Below, piece after piece: positions 54,088 through 63,385 of a stretch of 64,000 nucleotides of DNA. The DNA is from Deltaproteobacteria bacterium (GTDB lineage: Bacteria > Desulfobacterota > Binatia > UBA1149 > JAJCZL01), in the NCBI GenBank assembly GCA_029262415.1, contig JAJCZL010000027.1:62001-126000 (forward strand), in the 5' to 3' direction. The notes beneath the pieces are model-generated. The model saw only the letters and a list, made by a program, of their open reading frames with translations. It did no database searches and was not told the origin of the DNA. The position numbers were made by a program, and so were the translations under genes. Positions within the stretch are counted from its first letter, which is position 1, and each line of letters begins with the position of its first letter.

Positions 54088-54519
54088 TTAGATGCTGGTG
54101 CCGACGGTGCCGAGGTCGCGGGTAATACGGCGCACCTTAAGCTGGGCTTGGACACGCTCGAGCAGTTCGGTGCGCGTGAAGGGTTTGCATATGAAATCGC
54201 TGACGCCGAGCTTCATGCCTTCGTGTCGGGTCTTGAAGTCGTCGAGGCCGGTCAGGAGGATGATCTGCACTTCTGCGTAACGTGGGTTTTGGCGGAGCTT
54301 TGCGCAGACCTCCAAGCCGGTCATGCCGGGCATCATCACGTCGAGCAGAACCAGGTCAACGTCCTCACGCGACAGAACCTCGAGGGCGTCCATGCCGGAG
54401 TTGGCGGTCAGTAAATTGTAGTTCTCTTTCTCGAGTAGACGCATGACGACCTTGGTCGAATCGGGGTCGTCGTCAACCAGAAGGATCGTGCCTTTGTCTT
54501 GGTTTGTTGCAGTAGTCAT
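54088..54519 (-). CDS. single-domain response regulator (CheY-like)
   Basis: A 143-residue receiver domain with no output domain. The acidic pair is in LLVDDDP, the phospho-acceptor is D60 in LVLLD, Thr/Ser is in LLTGLDD, and Lys is in FICKPF. It ends about 20 residues beyond the receiver. It follows, by 11 bases, a sigma-54 activator that lacks a receiver of its own, so the two may form a split NtrC-type system. Start ATG 54519. Confidence 0.93.
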   Translation of the reverse strand: MTTATNQDKGTILLVDDDPDSTKVVMRLLEKENYNLLTANSGMDALEVLSREDVDLVLLDVMMPGMTGLEVCAKLRQNPRYAEVQIILLTGLDDFKTRHEGMKLGVSDFICKPFTRTELLERVQAQLKVRRITRDLGTVGTSI

Positions 54520-54530
54520 CCGGCTGTTCC

Positions 54531-55523
54531 TCAGTAGTTGTATGCCTGCGGCGCCGTGTAGTCGGCGTCTCGCTTGCGGCGGAGTTTTGCGACGAGTGTC
54601 GTGCGCTTCAGGCCGAGCAATCTAGCGGCAGCCTGCTTGTTGCCTTTGGTGCGTCGAAGCGCTTCATCGATGATGCGGTTTTCGAACTCCTCGACTGCGG
54701 CGTTGAGGTCCATGCCTTCTTCGCTGAGTTTGGGACGCGGAATCTTCTTCTCGGATAGAAACGAGCGGATGTTTGCCGGTAATTGGTCGGGCCGTACCAC
54801 CGGAGAATCTGCGAGGATTACTAGGCGTTCGAGTGTGTTCTCGAGTTCACGTACGTTGCCGGGCCAGTCATACTCCCAAAGCAGCACCATGGCTTCTTCG
54901 GAGATCGTGATCGGGTAGGGACGTCCCTCGTTGTGCTTGTGGAGAAAGTGTTCGATGAGGATAGGAATATCTGATCGACGGTCACGAAGCGGCGGCAGCA
55001 TGATAGGAATGACCTGCAAGCGGTAAAAGAGGTCTTCGCGGAATCTACCCGCTTCGACTTCGTGTGCCAGGTCCTTGTTGGTTGCCGCGATGACCCGGAC
55101 ATCCACTTTGAAGGGCATGTCTGCGCCGACCGGACGGATCTCGCGGTCTTGAAGAACCCGCAGAAACTTTACTTGCATGACCGGATTCATCTCGCCGATC
55201 TCGTCGAGGAACATGGTTCCGCCGTGGGCAAGTTGAAACATTCCGGGCCGGTGGCCGATAGCGCCGGTAAACGAGCCCTTCTGGTGCCCGAACATTTCCG
55301 ACTCGAGTAAGTCGCCGGGGATAGTACCGCAATTCACCGCTACGAAGGGCTGCGCGTTGCGCAGGCTCTGCTCATGAAGTTTGCGAGCAACCAGCTCCTT
55401 ACCGGTCCCAGACTCGCCGCTTATGAGCACAGTCGTTTCCGTCCTGGCGACTTTCTGAATCAGATGGTGGAGTTTCTGAATCAGCGCGTGGGTGCCGATG
55501 ATCTGAGTCGTGTTCTGTGCCAT
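54531..55523 (-). CDS. sigma-54-dependent activator without receiver domain
   Basis: A 330-residue protein that begins directly with the AAA+ domain. It has Walker A GESGTGKE, the sigma-54-contact loop GSFTGA (usually GAFTGA), Walker B GGTMFLDEIGE, sensor I/II (FREDLFYRL, PGNVRELEN), and a C-terminal Fis-type helix-turn-helix (NKQAAARLLGLKRTTLVAKLR). It would open sigma-54 promoters. Control must come from elsewhere, most simply the adjacent lone receiver. ATG 55523 is the start. The frame upstream to 55709 has no receiver signature. Confidence 0.93.
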   Translation of the reverse strand: MAQNTTQIIGTHALIQKLHHLIQKVARTETTVLISGESGTGKELVARKLHEQSLRNAQPFVAVNCGTIPGDLLESEMFGHQKGSFTGAIGHRPGMFQLAHGGTMFLDEIGEMNPVMQVKFLRVLQDREIRPVGADMPFKVDVRVIAATNKDLAHEVEAGRFREDLFYRLQVIPIMLPPLRDRRSDIPILIEHFLHKHNEGRPYPITISEEAMVLLWEYDWPGNVRELENTLERLVILADSPVVRPDQLPANIRSFLSEKKIPRPKLSEEGMDLNAAVEEFENRIIDEALRRTKGNKQAAARLLGLKRTTLVAKLRRKRDADYTAPQAYNY

Positions 55524-55814
55524 TAAACCTTCCAGTCGGTGTCTACTTCTTGCCGGGCCGACAAAATCGTTGCCAGTACAAAAGTAACACTCACCCGCTC
55601 GCAGCCGCTGCAAAAACGTCCGCCCGCGTGTCAAATCCGCAGTGTTGTCGTCGTATACGGCGAATGAGCATGGCAAGCGATCTGTTGGTGGCCATGCTGG
55701 TCGGCGCAAACGGCGCGTGGTAGGCCTATCCTATCCCGAGGCGTGAGCCTGGCGTCGGTTTTTCGACGCGACCGTCAGCAGCGGGTGAGTACCCCACGTG
55801 GTGAACAAATAGCA

Positions 55815-57504: not shown

Positions 57505-57655
57505 CCCCCCGTAACCCATGTCTCGGGTACGATATACCTATGCCGTGCTACTGTTGAGTTGGTTTGGCCTCGGCGCCGCACGGCCTTCTCGATTCCGATG
57601 CTCGGAGCCGTTTTTGCATGTATCGTATGGAATCAACCTTTTTGAGGTTCAACGG

Positions 57656-59125
57656 ATGCAACCCATGTTCAAGAAAATCGTTACTTTGATAGCCGCCACT
57701 GCCGTTTTGCCGCTAGTCGCTGTGCCGCCTGTATGGGCGCAAGCGACGCCGCTCGGCAGTGAGTTCCGTGTCAACACCCAAACCGCATATGGCCAAGAAA
57801 ACCCTTCAATTGCGGCCACATCCGCCGGCGGTTTCGTTATCGTCTGGGAGTCCGGTGGCGCTCAAGACGGCGATGCCTACGGGATCTTCGGCCAACGCTT
57901 CGATGCCTCCGGCACAGCGGTCGGCACTGAGTTTGCGGTCAACACCTACACCACCGGCGGACAGATCGAGGCTGTGGTTGATTCCGATGCGAACGGCAAA
58001 TTCGTGGTGGTGTGGCAAAGCGCTGGGCAGGATAGCTACGGTGCCGGCATTTTTGGCCAGCGCTACAATGCCGACGGCTCGGTCCTAGGCAGCGAGTTTA
58101 TGGTCAACACGTTCACGACCGGTGCACAGTCCGGACCCGAGGTCAGCATGGGGCTCGACGGAAGCTTTGTCGTCATGTGGAACGACGATGTCACCGAGGG
58201 CAACGGCAGCGGCGTATTCGCCCGGCGTTTCGATGCCGCCGGTGCGGCGGTCGGCGCGGAGTTTTTGCTCAACACTTTCACGACCGGCAACCAGAACGAC
58301 GTTGCTATCGGTATGGCCGCCGACGGCAGCTTTGTCGCCGCCTGGGTGAGCTCGTCCTTCGACGGCTCGGCTACGGGGATTGCCGCGCGTCGGTTCGACG
58401 CGTCCGGGGTTGCTGCAGCGCCCGAGCTTCTCGTAAACACCTACACCACCGGCTCACAGTCTCGCCCGAGTGTCGGCGTACGCGCTGACGGCTCGTTTGT
58501 GGTGGTCTGGGAGGGCTATGTCGACGCAGTAGCGCGCGCCGACATCTTCGGTCAGGCCTTTGACAACACCGGGGCTACGGTGGGTACGGAGTTTCTTGTT
58601 AACACTTTCACGACCGGCAACTCTGCGCAGTCTGCAGTTTCGTCGGAAGGCGACGGTTTTATCGCTACCTGGAGCAGCCTCGGTCAGGACGGCTCCGGCG
58701 ACGGCGTGTTCGCTCGTCGGTTCGGCGTCGACGGCACGCCTTTGAGTGATGAGTTCTTGGTTAACACGTTTACCGCCGGCGTCCAGCGCGACGCTGTTGC
58801 AGTCGAGACCGGTAGCTTTGTAGCTACATGGCTCAGCATCGGCCAGGATGGAGACGCGGGCGGTGTTTATGCCCAGCGCTTTGCCGGTCTCGCCGTGACC
58901 ACGACGACGACCTTGCCGCCGCCGGGTTGCGGCGATCCCAGCGGCGACGGCAACGTTACCGCCGGCGATGCGCTGCTGGTCTTGCAGGCCGCCGTCGGTG
59001 CGGGCGTGTGTCTACCCTGCATCTGCGATGTCAATGATGTTGGCGGCATCACCTCGACCGACGCGCTGCTGGTATTGCAAGCCGCCGTTGGACAACCGGT
59101 GACGTTGACCTGCCCGCCTTGCTGA
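57656..59125 (+). CDS. secreted seven-repeat propeller protein with dockerin-like tail
   Basis: A 489-residue exported protein. ATG 57656 (or 57665) follows GAGG; the signal peptide is about 1-27 (VPPVWAQA). Then come seven repeats of about 57 residues, each with E(F/L)xVNT(F/Y)TTG and a FVVVW strand and ending xIFGQRFDASG-like. Seven repeats suggest a seven-bladed propeller. A Thr/Pro linker (TTTTTLPPPG) leads to two dockerin-like units (DPSGDGNVTAGDALLVLQAAVG, then DVNDVGGITSTDALLV). No catalytic motif. It probably adheres or is displayed at the surface (inference). Style matches the anchor/dockerin protein at 2.8-4.6 kb. Confidence 0.78.
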   Translation: MQPMFKKIVTLIAATAVLPLVAVPPVWAQATPLGSEFRVNTQTAYGQENPSIAATSAGGFVIVWESGGAQDGDAYGIFGQRFDASGTAVGTEFAVNTYTTGGQIEAVVDSDANGKFVVVWQSAGQDSYGAGIFGQRYNADGSVLGSEFMVNTFTTGAQSGPEVSMGLDGSFVVMWNDDVTEGNGSGVFARRFDAAGAAVGAEFLLNTFTTGNQNDVAIGMAADGSFVAAWVSSSFDGSATGIAARRFDASGVAAAPELLVNTYTTGSQSRPSVGVRADGSFVVVWEGYVDAVARADIFGQAFDNTGATVGTEFLVNTFTTGNSAQSAVSSEGDGFIATWSSLGQDGSGDGVFARRFGVDGTPLSDEFLVNTFTAGVQRDAVAVETGSFVATWLSIGQDGDAGGVYAQRFAGLAVTTTTTLPPPGCGDPSGDGNVTAGDALLVLQAAVGAGVCLPCICDVNDVGGITSTDALLVLQAAVGQPVTLTCPPC

Positions 59126-59447
59126 GAAGCATCCCTGTCTATCGACGGACGCGCGTCCAAAAAAGGCTTGCGCGGCCGTCGTCGATGTAGCCAACAACTG
59201 GCACCACCAGGCCGCGTTTGCCTGTTGGAGTATGTCCGAGCGCAAACAACCACCGGCTGCGGGGAGGTTTAGCGCAGGCCGGTTGTAGAGGACAGTTATG
59301 GATTTGCCGTTGCAGACTTAACGCTTTTTTACATCCCGCGGGGTTGCCGTTTGATAGCATCACACAGGGTCGGCACAGCGCCTGACGCTGGGGTTGTGTG
59401 GCTATCCGTTGGGTGGTGGAGTTTCGCGTAGGTTGCTGAGGACGAAT
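59126..59447 (+). other. gene-free stretch upstream of the kinase operon
   Basis: No convincing frame lies on either strand. It includes a palindrome GGACGCGCGTCC followed by an A run near 59143-59160, and a slightly AT-richer part around 59310-59360 that could hold the kinase-operon promoter. I see no sigma-54 consensus (TGGCAC-N5-TTGC). Confidence 0.4.
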
Positions 59448-60779
59448 ATGGCTGTATCTGCGCCGTTTCATCGCCGAGAGGACAGTGGGCCTACCGGGGG
59501 CATGATGAGGATTTCTACTGGGCATCGCGGCGAAGAGTTTTCGGTACTCCTTGTAGAGGACAACCCAGGGGATGCATTCCTGTTGCAGGAAGCGGTCGAT
59601 AACGGGCGGTCTCCACTGTTTCGCTTCAAGCACACGGCGACGTTGACCGAGGCGATCGAGGTGCTGGACGCTACGCCGAATTTCGACGTTATGCTCGTGG
59701 ACCTGTCGCTGCCCGACAGTTTCGGGATCGACACTCTCCAACAAATCCGCGCATACGCGCCGACCACCCCGGTGGTGGTTCTTACCGGCCGTGACGACGA
59801 TCGGCTCGCGCTCGATGCGCTGCAGGCAGGCGCAGAAGACTATCTGACCAAAGGCGTCGTTGACGGCGGGACGCTTACGCGCGTGATTCGCCACGCGATC
59901 GAGCGCAGCCAGGCGACGCGCCGGATCCATGAACTGAACACAGAGTTACGCTCGACACTGGATGATCGGCTTGGAGAACTCAGCGCTACGCAAGAGCAAA
60001 ACATTCGCCACGAGCGCCTCACCGCGCTCGGAACCCTGGCCGGCGGCGTTGCGCACGAACTCAACAATCCGTTGATGGGCGTGATCAACCATATCCAATA
60101 CGCGATCAAGAAGCTCGGGCCGGAGGCGCAGGCGATCGAGAGTTCGTTGTCCGAAGCGCTCAAGTACTCGCGCAGATGTGCCGAGATTGTACATGACCTA
60201 CTGTCGTTTTCACGACGGGGAACAATAGTGCACATGCCGGGCGGCGTTGTCGGCGACATGAACACCGCCGTGCGCGAGGCGCTGCGCGATGCACGTGCAG
60301 CGACCGACGCCGCAGACATAGAGGTGCACTTGGAACTCGCCGAAGCGATCGCTGCTGTGGCCATAGACGAAAGCCGTCTGCGTCAAGTGATTCTGAACGT
60401 GATCTGCAATGCCTGCCAGGCAATGGACGGCTGCGAAGAGCGACGTTTAGTGTGTCGGACGGTGCCGGGGGATCGCGATGCGACCGTGTACATAGGCGAC
60501 ACCGGGCCGGGTATGGACGAGGAGACGTCAAGGAAAGTGTTCGACATGTTCTACACCACCAAAGCGCAAGGCGAGGGCACAGGAATCGGCTTGGCGCTGT
60601 GTCACAGCCTTATCGACAGTGTTGGTGGACGAATCTGGGTCGAATCCGTACCAGGCCGAGGCACGGTGTTTGCAGTTACAGTCCCTGCGGCAGCGGGCAC
60701 GACTGCGACTCACACGAGCGAAGACAACCCAACGGCGGAATACAGCCCAACGGCGGAAGAGAGTTTGACGGAGCATTGA
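59448..60779 (+). CDS. receiver-histidine kinase hybrid (receiver first)
   Basis: A 443-residue soluble kinase, ATG 59448 after GAGGA. The N-terminal receiver (about 32-150) has phospho-Asp D85 in MLVD and Lys in YLTKG. A coiled linker follows. The dimerisation helix has catalytic H203 in LAGGVAHELNNP. The ATPase domain has the N box NVICNACQAM, G1 DTGPGMDEE and G2 GEGTGIGLAL. The last residues are a short repeat (NPTAEYSPTAEES). A kinase with its receiver at the N-terminus and no sensor or membrane domain takes its input from a protein partner. It is first in an operon with a lone receiver and the KaiB-fusion gene. Confidence 0.93.
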   Translation: MAVSAPFHRREDSGPTGGMMRISTGHRGEEFSVLLVEDNPGDAFLLQEAVDNGRSPLFRFKHTATLTEAIEVLDATPNFDVMLVDLSLPDSFGIDTLQQIRAYAPTTPVVVLTGRDDDRLALDALQAGAEDYLTKGVVDGGTLTRVIRHAIERSQATRRIHELNTELRSTLDDRLGELSATQEQNIRHERLTALGTLAGGVAHELNNPLMGVINHIQYAIKKLGPEAQAIESSLSEALKYSRRCAEIVHDLLSFSRRGTIVHMPGGVVGDMNTAVREALRDARAATDAADIEVHLELAEAIAAVAIDESRLRQVILNVICNACQAMDGCEERRLVCRTVPGDRDATVYIGDTGPGMDEETSRKVFDMFYTTKAQGEGTGIGLALCHSLIDSVGGRIWVESVPGRGTVFAVTVPAAAGTTATHTSEDNPTAEYSPTAEESLTEH

Positions 60780-60780
60780 G

Positions 60781-61179
60781 ATGCGAATTTTGGTGATTGA
60801 TGACGAAGAGGCGGTCCGTACGTCCTTCCACCTAGCCTTGGAAGGCTTGCCTTACAGGTTGGGTACAGCTGCGACCGGTGAGGCCGGACTCGAGGCGCTC
60901 CGCAGTGAACCTGCAGACCTGATCTTTCTCGATCTGCACATGCCGGGGATTGACGGCGTCGAGACGCTGCGACGCTTACGTAGGGCGGGCATCGAGACTC
61001 CGGTCTATGTGATTACCGCATTTGCCGATGAGTTCATGCAGCGTCTGCAGGAAGCCGTCGATGAGGGGCTCGACTTCGAGTTGGTTCGTAAGCCGATTGA
61101 ACTCGACGACATCGCGAACGTCGTACACGAGGTTCTGGCCGACGAGTCGGAAATAGGCGTCGACGGACACGCGTATTAG
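60781..61179 (+). CDS. single-domain response regulator
   Basis: A 132-residue CheY-like receiver, starting one base after the kinase stop, so clearly its partner. Acidic pair D7/D8, phospho-acceptor D51 in LIFLDLHMPG, Thr in VITAF, Lys in LVRKP. No output domain, so it signals by protein contact. The KaiB-fusion gene follows 33 bases later. Confidence 0.94.
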   Translation: MRILVIDDEEAVRTSFHLALEGLPYRLGTAATGEAGLEALRSEPADLIFLDLHMPGIDGVETLRRLRRAGIETPVYVITAFADEFMQRLQEAVDEGLDFELVRKPIELDDIANVVHEVLADESEIGVDGHAY

Positions 61180-61212
61180 GTAGCCGACATTGCCGAAGGA
61201 AGAGGTGAGTGT

Positions 61213-62613
61213 GTGAGTCCGAAAAGCCTGATCGATATGCTGAGTGAGCCCGGCAGTGAATCGCACCGCCACCAGCTGGAGCTGTTTGTAAGCGGATGCA
61301 GCCGACACTCCGCGGCGGCTGTCCGCTCTGTTCGCAAGATTTGCGAAGAGGAGTTCGGGGACGTCTATCGCTTCAAGATCATCGATGTTCTCAAGAACCC
61401 GGCGGAAGCACGCCGAGCCGACGTTGTCGTCACGCCGACGCTGATTGTGCGTACGCCGTTGGTCGAGACTAAGAGTATCGGCCGCTCGATCTACGATCCT
61501 GCAAAGCTGCGTATCCTGCTGCGGCTCGACGAGCAAGTAAACGACCCGACCCCGGCAGGGTCGCAATCTGAGGGTGTGGCGTCAAATGCACAGGTCGGCG
61601 GATCCGCCGCTGACGTGCAAACCTCTCAAGACAAACCGTTCGGGCTGTACATCGTCGAAAGCGACCGTAAGATCTCCGAATTGCTCGAGCCCGCGCTCAT
61701 CGAACTGTCACTCGGTTATCGGTGGTTTGGGAAAGTAAAAGACGCGATTCATGCCCTGTTGACGCTTGAGTTGGAAAGCCTCGAAGTCAAGCCGGTGGTG
61801 CTCGTCGATATGCTGTGCGACCCGTTGGTTCTGCGTAAACTGCGCGCTTTGTACGAGCTCAAACCAGACTCGTTCCAGTTTGTGCTGGTTGATAATGTCG
61901 CTGCGGGAGTTGCCGACAGCGATACCGCAGATCTAGGCGCATCGGTGTGTCTGAGCTCGCCTTTGGATATAGCGGAACTGGCAGTCCAGATTCAAAAGTT
62001 TCTACGTTTGGGCGACCGCCCGTGTCCCTACTGCGGACAAAGCCTCGCCAATGCGCCTCGCTTGCCCGCAGCTGAAAAGCCTCAGCAGCGCTTTGCCGGC
62101 CCCGCGCACCTGGTTGTCACCGCTGATGTCGCCGATGTCGTCATGGGCGTAGCGCCGGTTACCGCCGCCGAAGCGCACGAGGACTTTGCGGAGGCGCCCG
62201 AAGCGGTCGCCCGCCTTGAAGCCGGTACTACGGCGACACCCGAACCTGCGCCGGACTTCGAACCCGACCCAGACTTCGAACCCGATCCCGACTTCGTACC
62301 CGATCCTAACTTCGATACCGTTGCTGAGACCGAACCGGAAATCTACGGAGAGCCGATTTCCTCGTACAGCAGCGAAGCCGCGGAGCCGGACACCTGCGAG
62401 GTTACCGACAAAGCTCGGGCGAGCGCAGACCAAGCGTCCACAAGCGCCGCGGTCGCCGACCTCGGCAAAGCTGCCGCTCCCGGCATCGGTGGTAGCGGCG
62501 CTGTTCCTGAGCCTGCCTTACCAAAGGTTGGGGCAGGCGACCGGCAAGCCGACACGAGTTCAGAGCCGCAAGTCAAAACCGACCGCGCCGTCTGGCGTTC
62601 GCTCCTCGACTAA
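61213..62613 (+). CDS. KaiB-fold / degenerate receiver / CxxC / acidic-tail fusion protein
   Basis: A 466-residue protein from GTG 61213. Residues 21-106 match the KaiB thioredoxin-like fold: LELFVSGCSRHSAAAVRSVRKICEEE, then KIIDVLKNPAEARRADVVVTPTLIV with cis-Pro region P75 and LRILLRL end. Residues about 143-266 look like a receiver with altered key sites: the acidic pair replaced (IVESD), an Asp in VVLVD (D199) kept, and the Lys-Pro replaced by Ser-Pro (S249). A lone CPYC (271-274) follows, then about 190 residues of acidic, Ala/Pro-rich low complexity with DFEPDP repeats. KaiB partners kinases in the cyanobacterial clock. Here it is encoded with a kinase and receiver. Confidence 0.75.
   Translation: MSPKSLIDMLSEPGSESHRHQLELFVSGCSRHSAAAVRSVRKICEEEFGDVYRFKIIDVLKNPAEARRADVVVTPTLIVRTPLVETKSIGRSIYDPAKLRILLRLDEQVNDPTPAGSQSEGVASNAQVGGSAADVQTSQDKPFGLYIVESDRKISELLEPALIELSLGYRWFGKVKDAIHALLTLELESLEVKPVVLVDMLCDPLVLRKLRALYELKPDSFQFVLVDNVAAGVADSDTADLGASVCLSSPLDIAELAVQIQKFLRLGDRPCPYCGQSLANAPRLPAAEKPQQRFAGPAHLVVTADVADVVMGVAPVTAAEAHEDFAEAPEAVARLEAGTTATPEPAPDFEPDPDFEPDPDFVPDPNFDTVAETEPEIYGEPISSYSSEAAEPDTCEVTDKARASADQASTSAAVADLGKAAAPGIGGSGAVPEPALPKVGAGDRQADTSSEPQVKTDRAVWRSLLD
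62254..62316 (+). repeat. 18-bp tandem repeat encoding DFEPDP units
   Basis: Three and a half units of an 18-bp repeat, starting at 62254, 62272, 62290 and 62308, code for acidic DFEPDP-like blocks in the tail of the KaiB-fusion protein. They are likely to vary in number by slippage. Confidence 0.85.
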
Positions 62614-62650: not shown

Positions 62651-63346
62651 TCAGCTCTTGGTTCCGTCGGTAGGTCGCGGCTCGGTCGCGAGGTTTGAGT
62701 GACGGACGATGTCACCTTCGGTCATGTAGATCACATCTTCGGCAATGTTGGTCGCGTGATCGGCAATTCTTTCCAAATAGCGCGAGGCCGATAAATAACA
62801 GGTGTAGAGCGATGCGTGTTCCGGCCTTGCGCCTACCGCGGCAATAAACCAGGCGTAGGTGCTGCGGTGCAAATCGTCGACGACGTCGTCTGCGATGCAG
62901 ACCCTGCGCGCCTCTGCCGCGTTGATATTGACGAGTGAGTCGAGGCTCGACCGCACCATAGCACGGGCGCGCGTGACCATCTCGCCGATGTGCGAGGGCA
63001 TCTCGGGTGGGGAGTCGGCAGCCGAGAGCGCGACCGCCTGCTCGGCGATGTTGACTGCGAGATCGCCGATTCTCTCCAAGTCGTTGTTCAGCTTGAGTAT
63101 CGCAATTACATAACGCAGGTCAGTAGCGACGGGTTGGTGAAGCGCAAGAATCTTCAGGCAATCCTCCTCGACGTTTACCTCTTCAGCGTCGATCAACACA
63201 TCGGACGCGACGACCTCGGCGGCCAATATGTGGTTGCGGTCGATAACTGCGGCAGCGGCCTTATCGAGCGCGCCTTCCACGAGCGCTCCAAGCGCAAGGC
63301 TCTTACACTTGAGTTGTTCGATTTCCTTATCTAAGTGGCGTTTCAT
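62651..63346 (-). CDS. phoU: phosphate transport regulator PhoU
   Basis: A 231-residue two-repeat three-helix-bundle protein. Each repeat has the metal-binding E/D-rich DxExN..D pattern (LKLNNDLERIGDLAVNIAEQA; ASRYLERIADHATNIAEDVIYM). PhoU silences phosphate-regulon signalling through the Pst transporter and PhoR. ATG 63346 matches the family N-terminus (MKRHLDKEIEQLK). It is the last gene of the pst-phoU set, 39 bases after pstB. Confidence 0.96.
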   Translation of the reverse strand: MKRHLDKEIEQLKCKSLALGALVEGALDKAAAAVIDRNHILAAEVVASDVLIDAEEVNVEEDCLKILALHQPVATDLRYVIAILKLNNDLERIGDLAVNIAEQAVALSAADSPPEMPSHIGEMVTRARAMVRSSLDSLVNINAAEARRVCIADDVVDDLHRSTYAWFIAAVGARPEHASLYTCYLSASRYLERIADHATNIAEDVIYMTEGDIVRHSNLATEPRPTDGTKS

Positions 63347-63385
63347 TGTGTGCTCCAGGCCGAAGGTGTTCACTTGCGCGTCCGT

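Follow-up and report, generated by a model that had tools for sequence, protein, structure and literature searches.

What does a KaiB domain do when it is fused to a receiver-like domain and encoded next to a histidine kinase, in a genome where no kaiC is found? This question is raised by three genes near one end of the window, the 64,000-nucleotide stretch of DNA from a Deltaproteobacteria bacterium of the class Binatia that is analysed here. A sequence-only reading of the locus had proposed that the fusion protein gates the kinase in a redox- or time-dependent manner. We re-examined each domain of the three proteins, the rest of the genome and its relatives, and weighed this proposal against other explanations.

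The three-gene locus and the domains of the fusion protein

The three genes lie on one strand, in the order REC-kinase, lone receiver and KaiB fusion, with spacings of 1 nt and 33 nt that suggest a putative operon. The first gene (59448–60779, plus strand, 443 amino acids; alternative starts are a TTG upstream at 59394 and internal ATGs at 59502 and 59505) encodes a soluble REC-HisKA-HATPase_c histidine kinase, in which the Pfam matches are over the cut-offs. Its N-terminal receiver (residues 33–137) has a complete catalytic quintet (E37/D38, D85, T113 and K135) and is followed by HisKA (residues 194–258, 34.2 bits, with His203) and HATPase_c (residues 307–415, 85.7 bits), with the H, N, G1 and G2 boxes all present. 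No sensor domain was found in this protein besides the N-terminal receiver, in agreement with the sequence-only reading, which had described a soluble kinase with its receiver at the N-terminus and no sensor. The second gene (60781–61179, plus strand, 132 amino acids), which starts 1 nt past the stop codon of the kinase gene, encodes a lone receiver (PF00072, 80.8 bits; complete quintet D7/D8, D51, T79 and K104) and, again as first described, no output domain. The third gene (61213–62613, plus strand, 466 amino acids) has a GTG start 33 nt past the lone receiver gene, and its codon-position GC is coding-like in every part, including the tail. Downstream and convergent with it lies phoU (62651–63373, minus strand); upstream, the three genes are flanked by an unrelated secreted-type protein that ends at 59125. 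Scans for sigma-70 promoters and terminators gave matches at chance level only. The secreted-type protein itself (57518–59125 in the window) contains repeated EFxVNTxTTGxQ units, a Thr-rich linker and a C-terminal dockerin-like repeat pair, and elsewhere in the window (54088–55709, minus strand) a sigma-54 activator with a Fis-type helix-turn-helix precedes a lone receiver encoded on that strand.

The KaiB domain of the fusion protein occupies residues 21–108 (61273–61536, plus strand). PF07689 matches residues 24–100 with 46.4 bits, for a cut-off of 27 (49.9 bits in the genome-wide search, which identifies the fusion as the sole KaiB of the genome), and solved KaiB structures match the domain at E 1e-10. 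A KaiB-like domain had been proposed at residues 21–106, and the HMM search that might have placed it in another thioredoxin-fold family returned KaiB. The domain is also closer to KaiB than to SasA (E 2.8e-11 with the KaiB model versus 0.15 with the SasA model). KaiB-family identity is therefore well supported. The cut-offs of the circadian KaiB equivalogs are not reached (42.5 bits versus 145.3 for TIGR02654 and 43.4 bits versus 110 for NF006798). The sole structural model covering the KaiB part, a single-sequence AlphaFold prediction of residues 1–276, has a pLDDT of 36, a confidence too low for use.

The second domain, residues 142–267 (61636–62013, plus strand), has no Pfam match. A receiver profile scores 13.0 bits on this region, compared with 7.6 for the best of 1000 shuffled sequences, and when residues 1–276 are used as query, receiver domains of other genomes align to this region with E values from 2e-4 to 8e-4. 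Matches at E < 1e-3 in three genomes (G031, G276 and G406) were considered as fusion relatives and rejected; the match in G031 is part of an NtrC-like regulator, namely its receiver, while G406 contains an ordinary receiver. Because a mixed alignment of KaiB and receiver sequences placed receivers onto the KaiB part, the second domain was modelled alone. AlphaFold2 then gave a (beta-alpha)5 fold with a pLDDT of 78, from an alignment that includes 21 receivers, 14–22% identical, which bias the model to a receiver fold. The structural matches listed for this model are receivers, at Z 14.5–16; the pseudo-receivers of CikA and KaiA are absent among those listed, which carries no weight for or against. 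The model is consistent with a receiver fold, which we propose with moderate confidence. Among the five catalytic positions, the phospho-acceptor Asp199 is kept and Glu149, the first of the acidic pair, is still acidic, while three are changed: the second of the pair is Ser150, the Thr is replaced by Asp227 and the Lys by Ser249. A pseudo-receiver is defined as a receiver fold in which one or more of the five catalytic residues are missing (PMC12632262), and by this definition residues 142–267, as judged from sequence and model, are a pseudo-receiver (PsR). The earlier idea of a receiver mimic holds, weakly by sequence; its account of the catalytic site did not include the retention of Asp199.

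The protein ends in an acidic Ala/Pro-rich low-complexity tail, residues 277–466 (62041–62610, plus strand), with 36 D/E and 12 K/R among 190 residues and three PDFxPDP-type repeats near residues 347–366, much as the long acidic repeat tail had been described from the sequence.

A KaiB domain in a genome where KaiC was not found

The genome (3.9 Mb in 83 contigs, 96.8% complete) was searched with the KaiC profile and no kaiC was found: the matches over the cut-off, named by reading their sequences, are RadA, DnaB, RecA and another P-loop protein that is built differently. With a KaiC protein of the class as query, the best match in the genome is 16 bits. No kaiA was found in the 96.8%-complete genome either, which extends to the whole assembly what had been said of the locus, that no kaiC or kaiA was in view. 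A kaiC gene could lie in the missing 3% or so of the assembly. KaiB is found over the cut-off in 15 of the 148 genomes of the class, and in none of the 12 other genomes of the order; a strong KaiC match accompanies it in 12 of these 15, all but the present genome, G129 and G087. The genome of locus L073 was also considered as lacking KaiC and was rejected, as a KaiC-like gene is present there. According to a survey published in 2017, KaiB occurs in Bacteria and Archaea only together with a full-length KaiC (PMC5520375). In the present genome, by comparison, and in at least one more of the class (G129), a diverged KaiB adjoins signalling genes and no KaiC was detected.

The KaiB domain of the fusion has diverged most in a conserved loop. 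It scores under all 143 reference KaiBs in both halves and is worst at the loop, where residues 82–94, PLVETKSIGRSIY (61456–61494, plus strand), replace the conserved PxPRRxIGDLS motif and again fall below all 143 references, with a z of –6.7 (S. elongatus positions 69–80). Positions are numbered on what we take to be the S. elongatus KaiB sequence, which agrees with the PDB chain over residues 7–87. The degenerate loop sits in the half of KaiB that fold-switches and faces KaiC. The loop is lost too in the diverged KaiB of G129 (z –7.4), where no KaiC was detected, and is retained (z –0.2) in the KaiB of G055, whose N half is equally diverged and whose gene is adjacent to kaiC. Loss of the loop and absence of KaiC are not strictly coupled, since the KaiB of G087 has a normal loop although KaiC was not detected in that genome.

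Two further residues bear on the fold of the domain. Residues 102–104, Leu-Leu-Arg (61516–61524, plus strand), are aligned with S. elongatus Gly88-Leu89-Asp90. The first position is Gly in 137 of the 143 reference KaiBs and Leu102 in the fusion; the last is Arg in none of the 143 and Arg104 in the fusion. This placement needs a one-residue insertion in the loop alignment, and without it the two residues become Ile and Leu, so that Gly and Asp are absent in either case. The Asp-to-Arg change at Arg104 also occurs in 5jwo_B, a KaiB chain locked in the fold-switched form, and the substitutions G88A/D90R (G89A/D91R in T. elongatus) favour the fold-switched, thioredoxin-like form of KaiB (PMC12618002; PMC6378743). 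Judging from these two residues, the KaiB domain of the fusion is probably locked into its thioredoxin-like form. In the CikA type of interaction, KaiB and the PsR contact each other by their beta2 edges; the edge of the present domain that corresponds to the CikA contact differs in part from that of S. elongatus, with Arg53 in place of Ala40 and Lys55 matching Lys42. In a KaiB tree the fusion has the longest branch of all rows (4.47) and is joined with the KaiB of G129. Both branches are very long and the join may be false, and we claim no shared origin. The G129 gene (L044:5797–6216) lies directly upstream of a gene for a PAS-PAS-GAF protein that is interrupted by the contig end, and in G087 a S-adenosylmethionine-synthetase-like frame overlaps the KaiB region (L021:1483–1776, minus strand) on the opposite strand.

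Proposed action at the neighbouring kinase and alternative explanations

The reading that we prefer, with a probability of roughly 0.4, is that the fusion is a KaiC-independent KaiB module which works outside a clock, tethered to a PsR, and which would regulate the neighbouring two-component pair by protein–protein contact. Gating of the kinase appears to be the most plausible class of function. The KaiB domain would be held in its thioredoxin-like, fold-switched form, and the PsR would bind the neighbouring REC-kinase at its HisKA domain, lowering the kinase's autophosphorylation or phosphotransfer, in the manner of the PsRs of CikA and ShkA: the CikA PsR inhibits its own kinase and binds fold-switched KaiB (PMC6378743; PMC12632262), and the ShkA PsR binds HisKA (PMC12632262). 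The KaiB domain may in turn compete for PsR docking or modify it, in cis or via a partner, as fold-switched KaiB does on the PsR of CikA. The PsR would thus be the kinase-facing part and KaiB the regulating part of a protein acting in trans on the kinase, and phosphorylation of the lone receiver would provide the output. Several points count against this reading: no orthologue of the fusion turned up in the genomes searched, the locked fold depends on two residues and on where the one-residue insertion is placed, the KaiB edge that CikA would contact is altered in part, G087 keeps a normal loop although KaiC was not detected there, and the missing 3% or so of the assembly could hold kaiC. If confirmed, the fusion would offer a natural, clock-free case in which to look at KaiB's own role, and one of a metamorphic protein that loses its second fold.

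Because Asp199 is kept, the fusion may instead be a weak response regulator, and this is the chief rival of the proposed KaiB–PsR module, although we consider it unlikely. The fusion would then be the output of the kinase, inefficiently phosphorylated on Asp199 so as to expose the KaiB domain as an effector to another partner. The retention of Glu149 as well as Asp199 fits this explanation, as do the position of the gene after those of the kinase and receiver and the suggestion that PsRs keeping the Asp may be less efficient response regulators (PMC12632262). However, three of the five catalytic positions are changed (S150, D227 and S249), including a Thr that has become acidic, and a complete lone receiver adjoins the kinase and is a likelier substrate.

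A more specific form of the preferred module, which we regard as quite unlikely, is a one-chain switch free of KaiC, in which KaiB, fixed in the thioredoxin-like form, would bind the PsR of its own chain and release it to gate the neighbouring kinase. If this were true, KaiB could serve as a general two-component regulator.

The divergence of the domain could also mean that the locus is the remnant of an ancestral kaiC-kaiB-kinase cluster that lost kaiC, leaving kaiB to drift with no selected role. The longest branch of the KaiB tree, the loss of the conserved loop, the common occurrence of the kaiC-kaiB-kinase layout and the failure to find an orthologue in the relatives searched are all compatible with decay. 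We nevertheless find it distinctly unlikely: the 466-codon frame is intact and coding-like throughout in its codon-position GC, the N half is recognisable as KaiB, the kinase and the lone receiver are catalytically complete, and decay would not be expected to add a linker and an entire receiver domain.

There is a slimmer chance that the fusion is a redox sensor, gating the kinase through its thioredoxin-like KaiB domain or through a CPYC pair that would bind a metal or form a disulfide. The protein has seven cysteines, including those of a single CPYC motif (62023–62034, plus strand; residues 271–274, where it had been noticed from the sequence), and the fold-switched KaiB fold is thioredoxin-like (PMC6378743). 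On the other hand, the KaiB domain lacks a CxxC where thioredoxins have their active site, Cys29 standing alone there, the CPYC lies in the low-complexity linker, and no other RPCPYCG-type motif was found in the KaiB loci compared. The redox dependence put forward by the sequence-only reading is therefore not supported, nor is its time dependence, since KaiC was not detected and the domain lacks the loop that KaiC-linked KaiBs conserve. That the fusion is still a Kai timer, driven by a kaiC missing from this 83-contig assembly or by a non-homologous ATPase, is very improbable: KaiB does nearly always accompany KaiC (named loci; PMC5520375) and the assembly is 96.8% complete, but neither the profile nor the class KaiC protein found a KaiC, the kaiC gene that adjoins kaiB in most relatives is not there, and the loop is gone.

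Rarity of the fusion and its relation to known systems

The KaiB–PsR fusion is known from one genome only. It was not found in 145 genomes of the class, in 395 genomes of the phylum or in 80 named bacterial and archaeal KaiB loci, where at most 24 residues follow the KaiB domain, versus about 360 in the fusion. When the fusion by itself served as pattern in a genome-wide scan, no relative emerged, nor did one in viral contigs; plasmid matches cover the KaiB part only, with no fusion, and kaiC or kinase genes adjoin in the two that were inspected.

The fusion brings together two domain types that meet in the output of the cyanobacterial clock, with an Arg at the position of the engineered Asp-to-Arg lock. 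Like the pair formed by the CikA PsR and fold-switched KaiB, it combines these two types, but in the CikA system the PsR is on the kinase, KaiB is a separate chain and KaiC is present, whereas here KaiB and PsR share one chain, the kinase is separate and KaiC was not found. In SasA, too, a KaiB-like domain is tied to kinase signalling; there it is on the kinase chain and binds KaiC, whereas here KaiB is on the PsR protein and the kinase is a separate gene. Naturally fold-switched KaiBs have been described, namely the elongated cyanobacterial KaiB-4 and KaiB-TV4 and the KaiB of Legionella, which has a non-circadian role (PMC10808063). KaiB-4 has an extra domain as well, but this lies at the N-terminus and its homology is unknown, while the PsR of the fusion is C-terminal, and no receiver fusion is known for Legionella KaiB. 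Osp, a single-domain receiver-like protein, inhibits the kinase CckA, and inhibitors of this type act directly on the transmitter domain of the kinase and, unlike the fusion, have no KaiB domain (PMC9430884). The altered KaiB domain, its fusion to a PsR beside a kinase and a receiver, and the lack of a detected kaiC suggest that a clock part has been reused as an ordinary signalling adaptor.

The layout had been put forward as one without described example. This is true of the fusion and of the missing kaiC, which are what is new here; a kinase adjoining kaiB is ordinary. A kinase gene beside kaiB was described earlier in non-cyanobacterial kaiC-kaiB-(kaiB)-histidine kinase clusters (PMC3164672), in which, as here, KaiB is encoded with a kinase and receivers. 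Those clusters have kaiC, and their KaiB, about 100 residues long, stands alone and carries the PxPRRxIGDLS loop, in contrast with the absence of kaiC, the C-terminal PsR and the broken loop of the present locus. The usual layout in the named loci is kaiC-kaiB-kaiB followed by a kinase, and annotated kaiB loci show the same arrangement. In the KaiB tree, the tandem KaiBs that follow kaiC (L050–L129, bacteria and archaea) form two fairly distinct groups by position, the first copy adjoining kaiC and the second copy adjoining the kinase.
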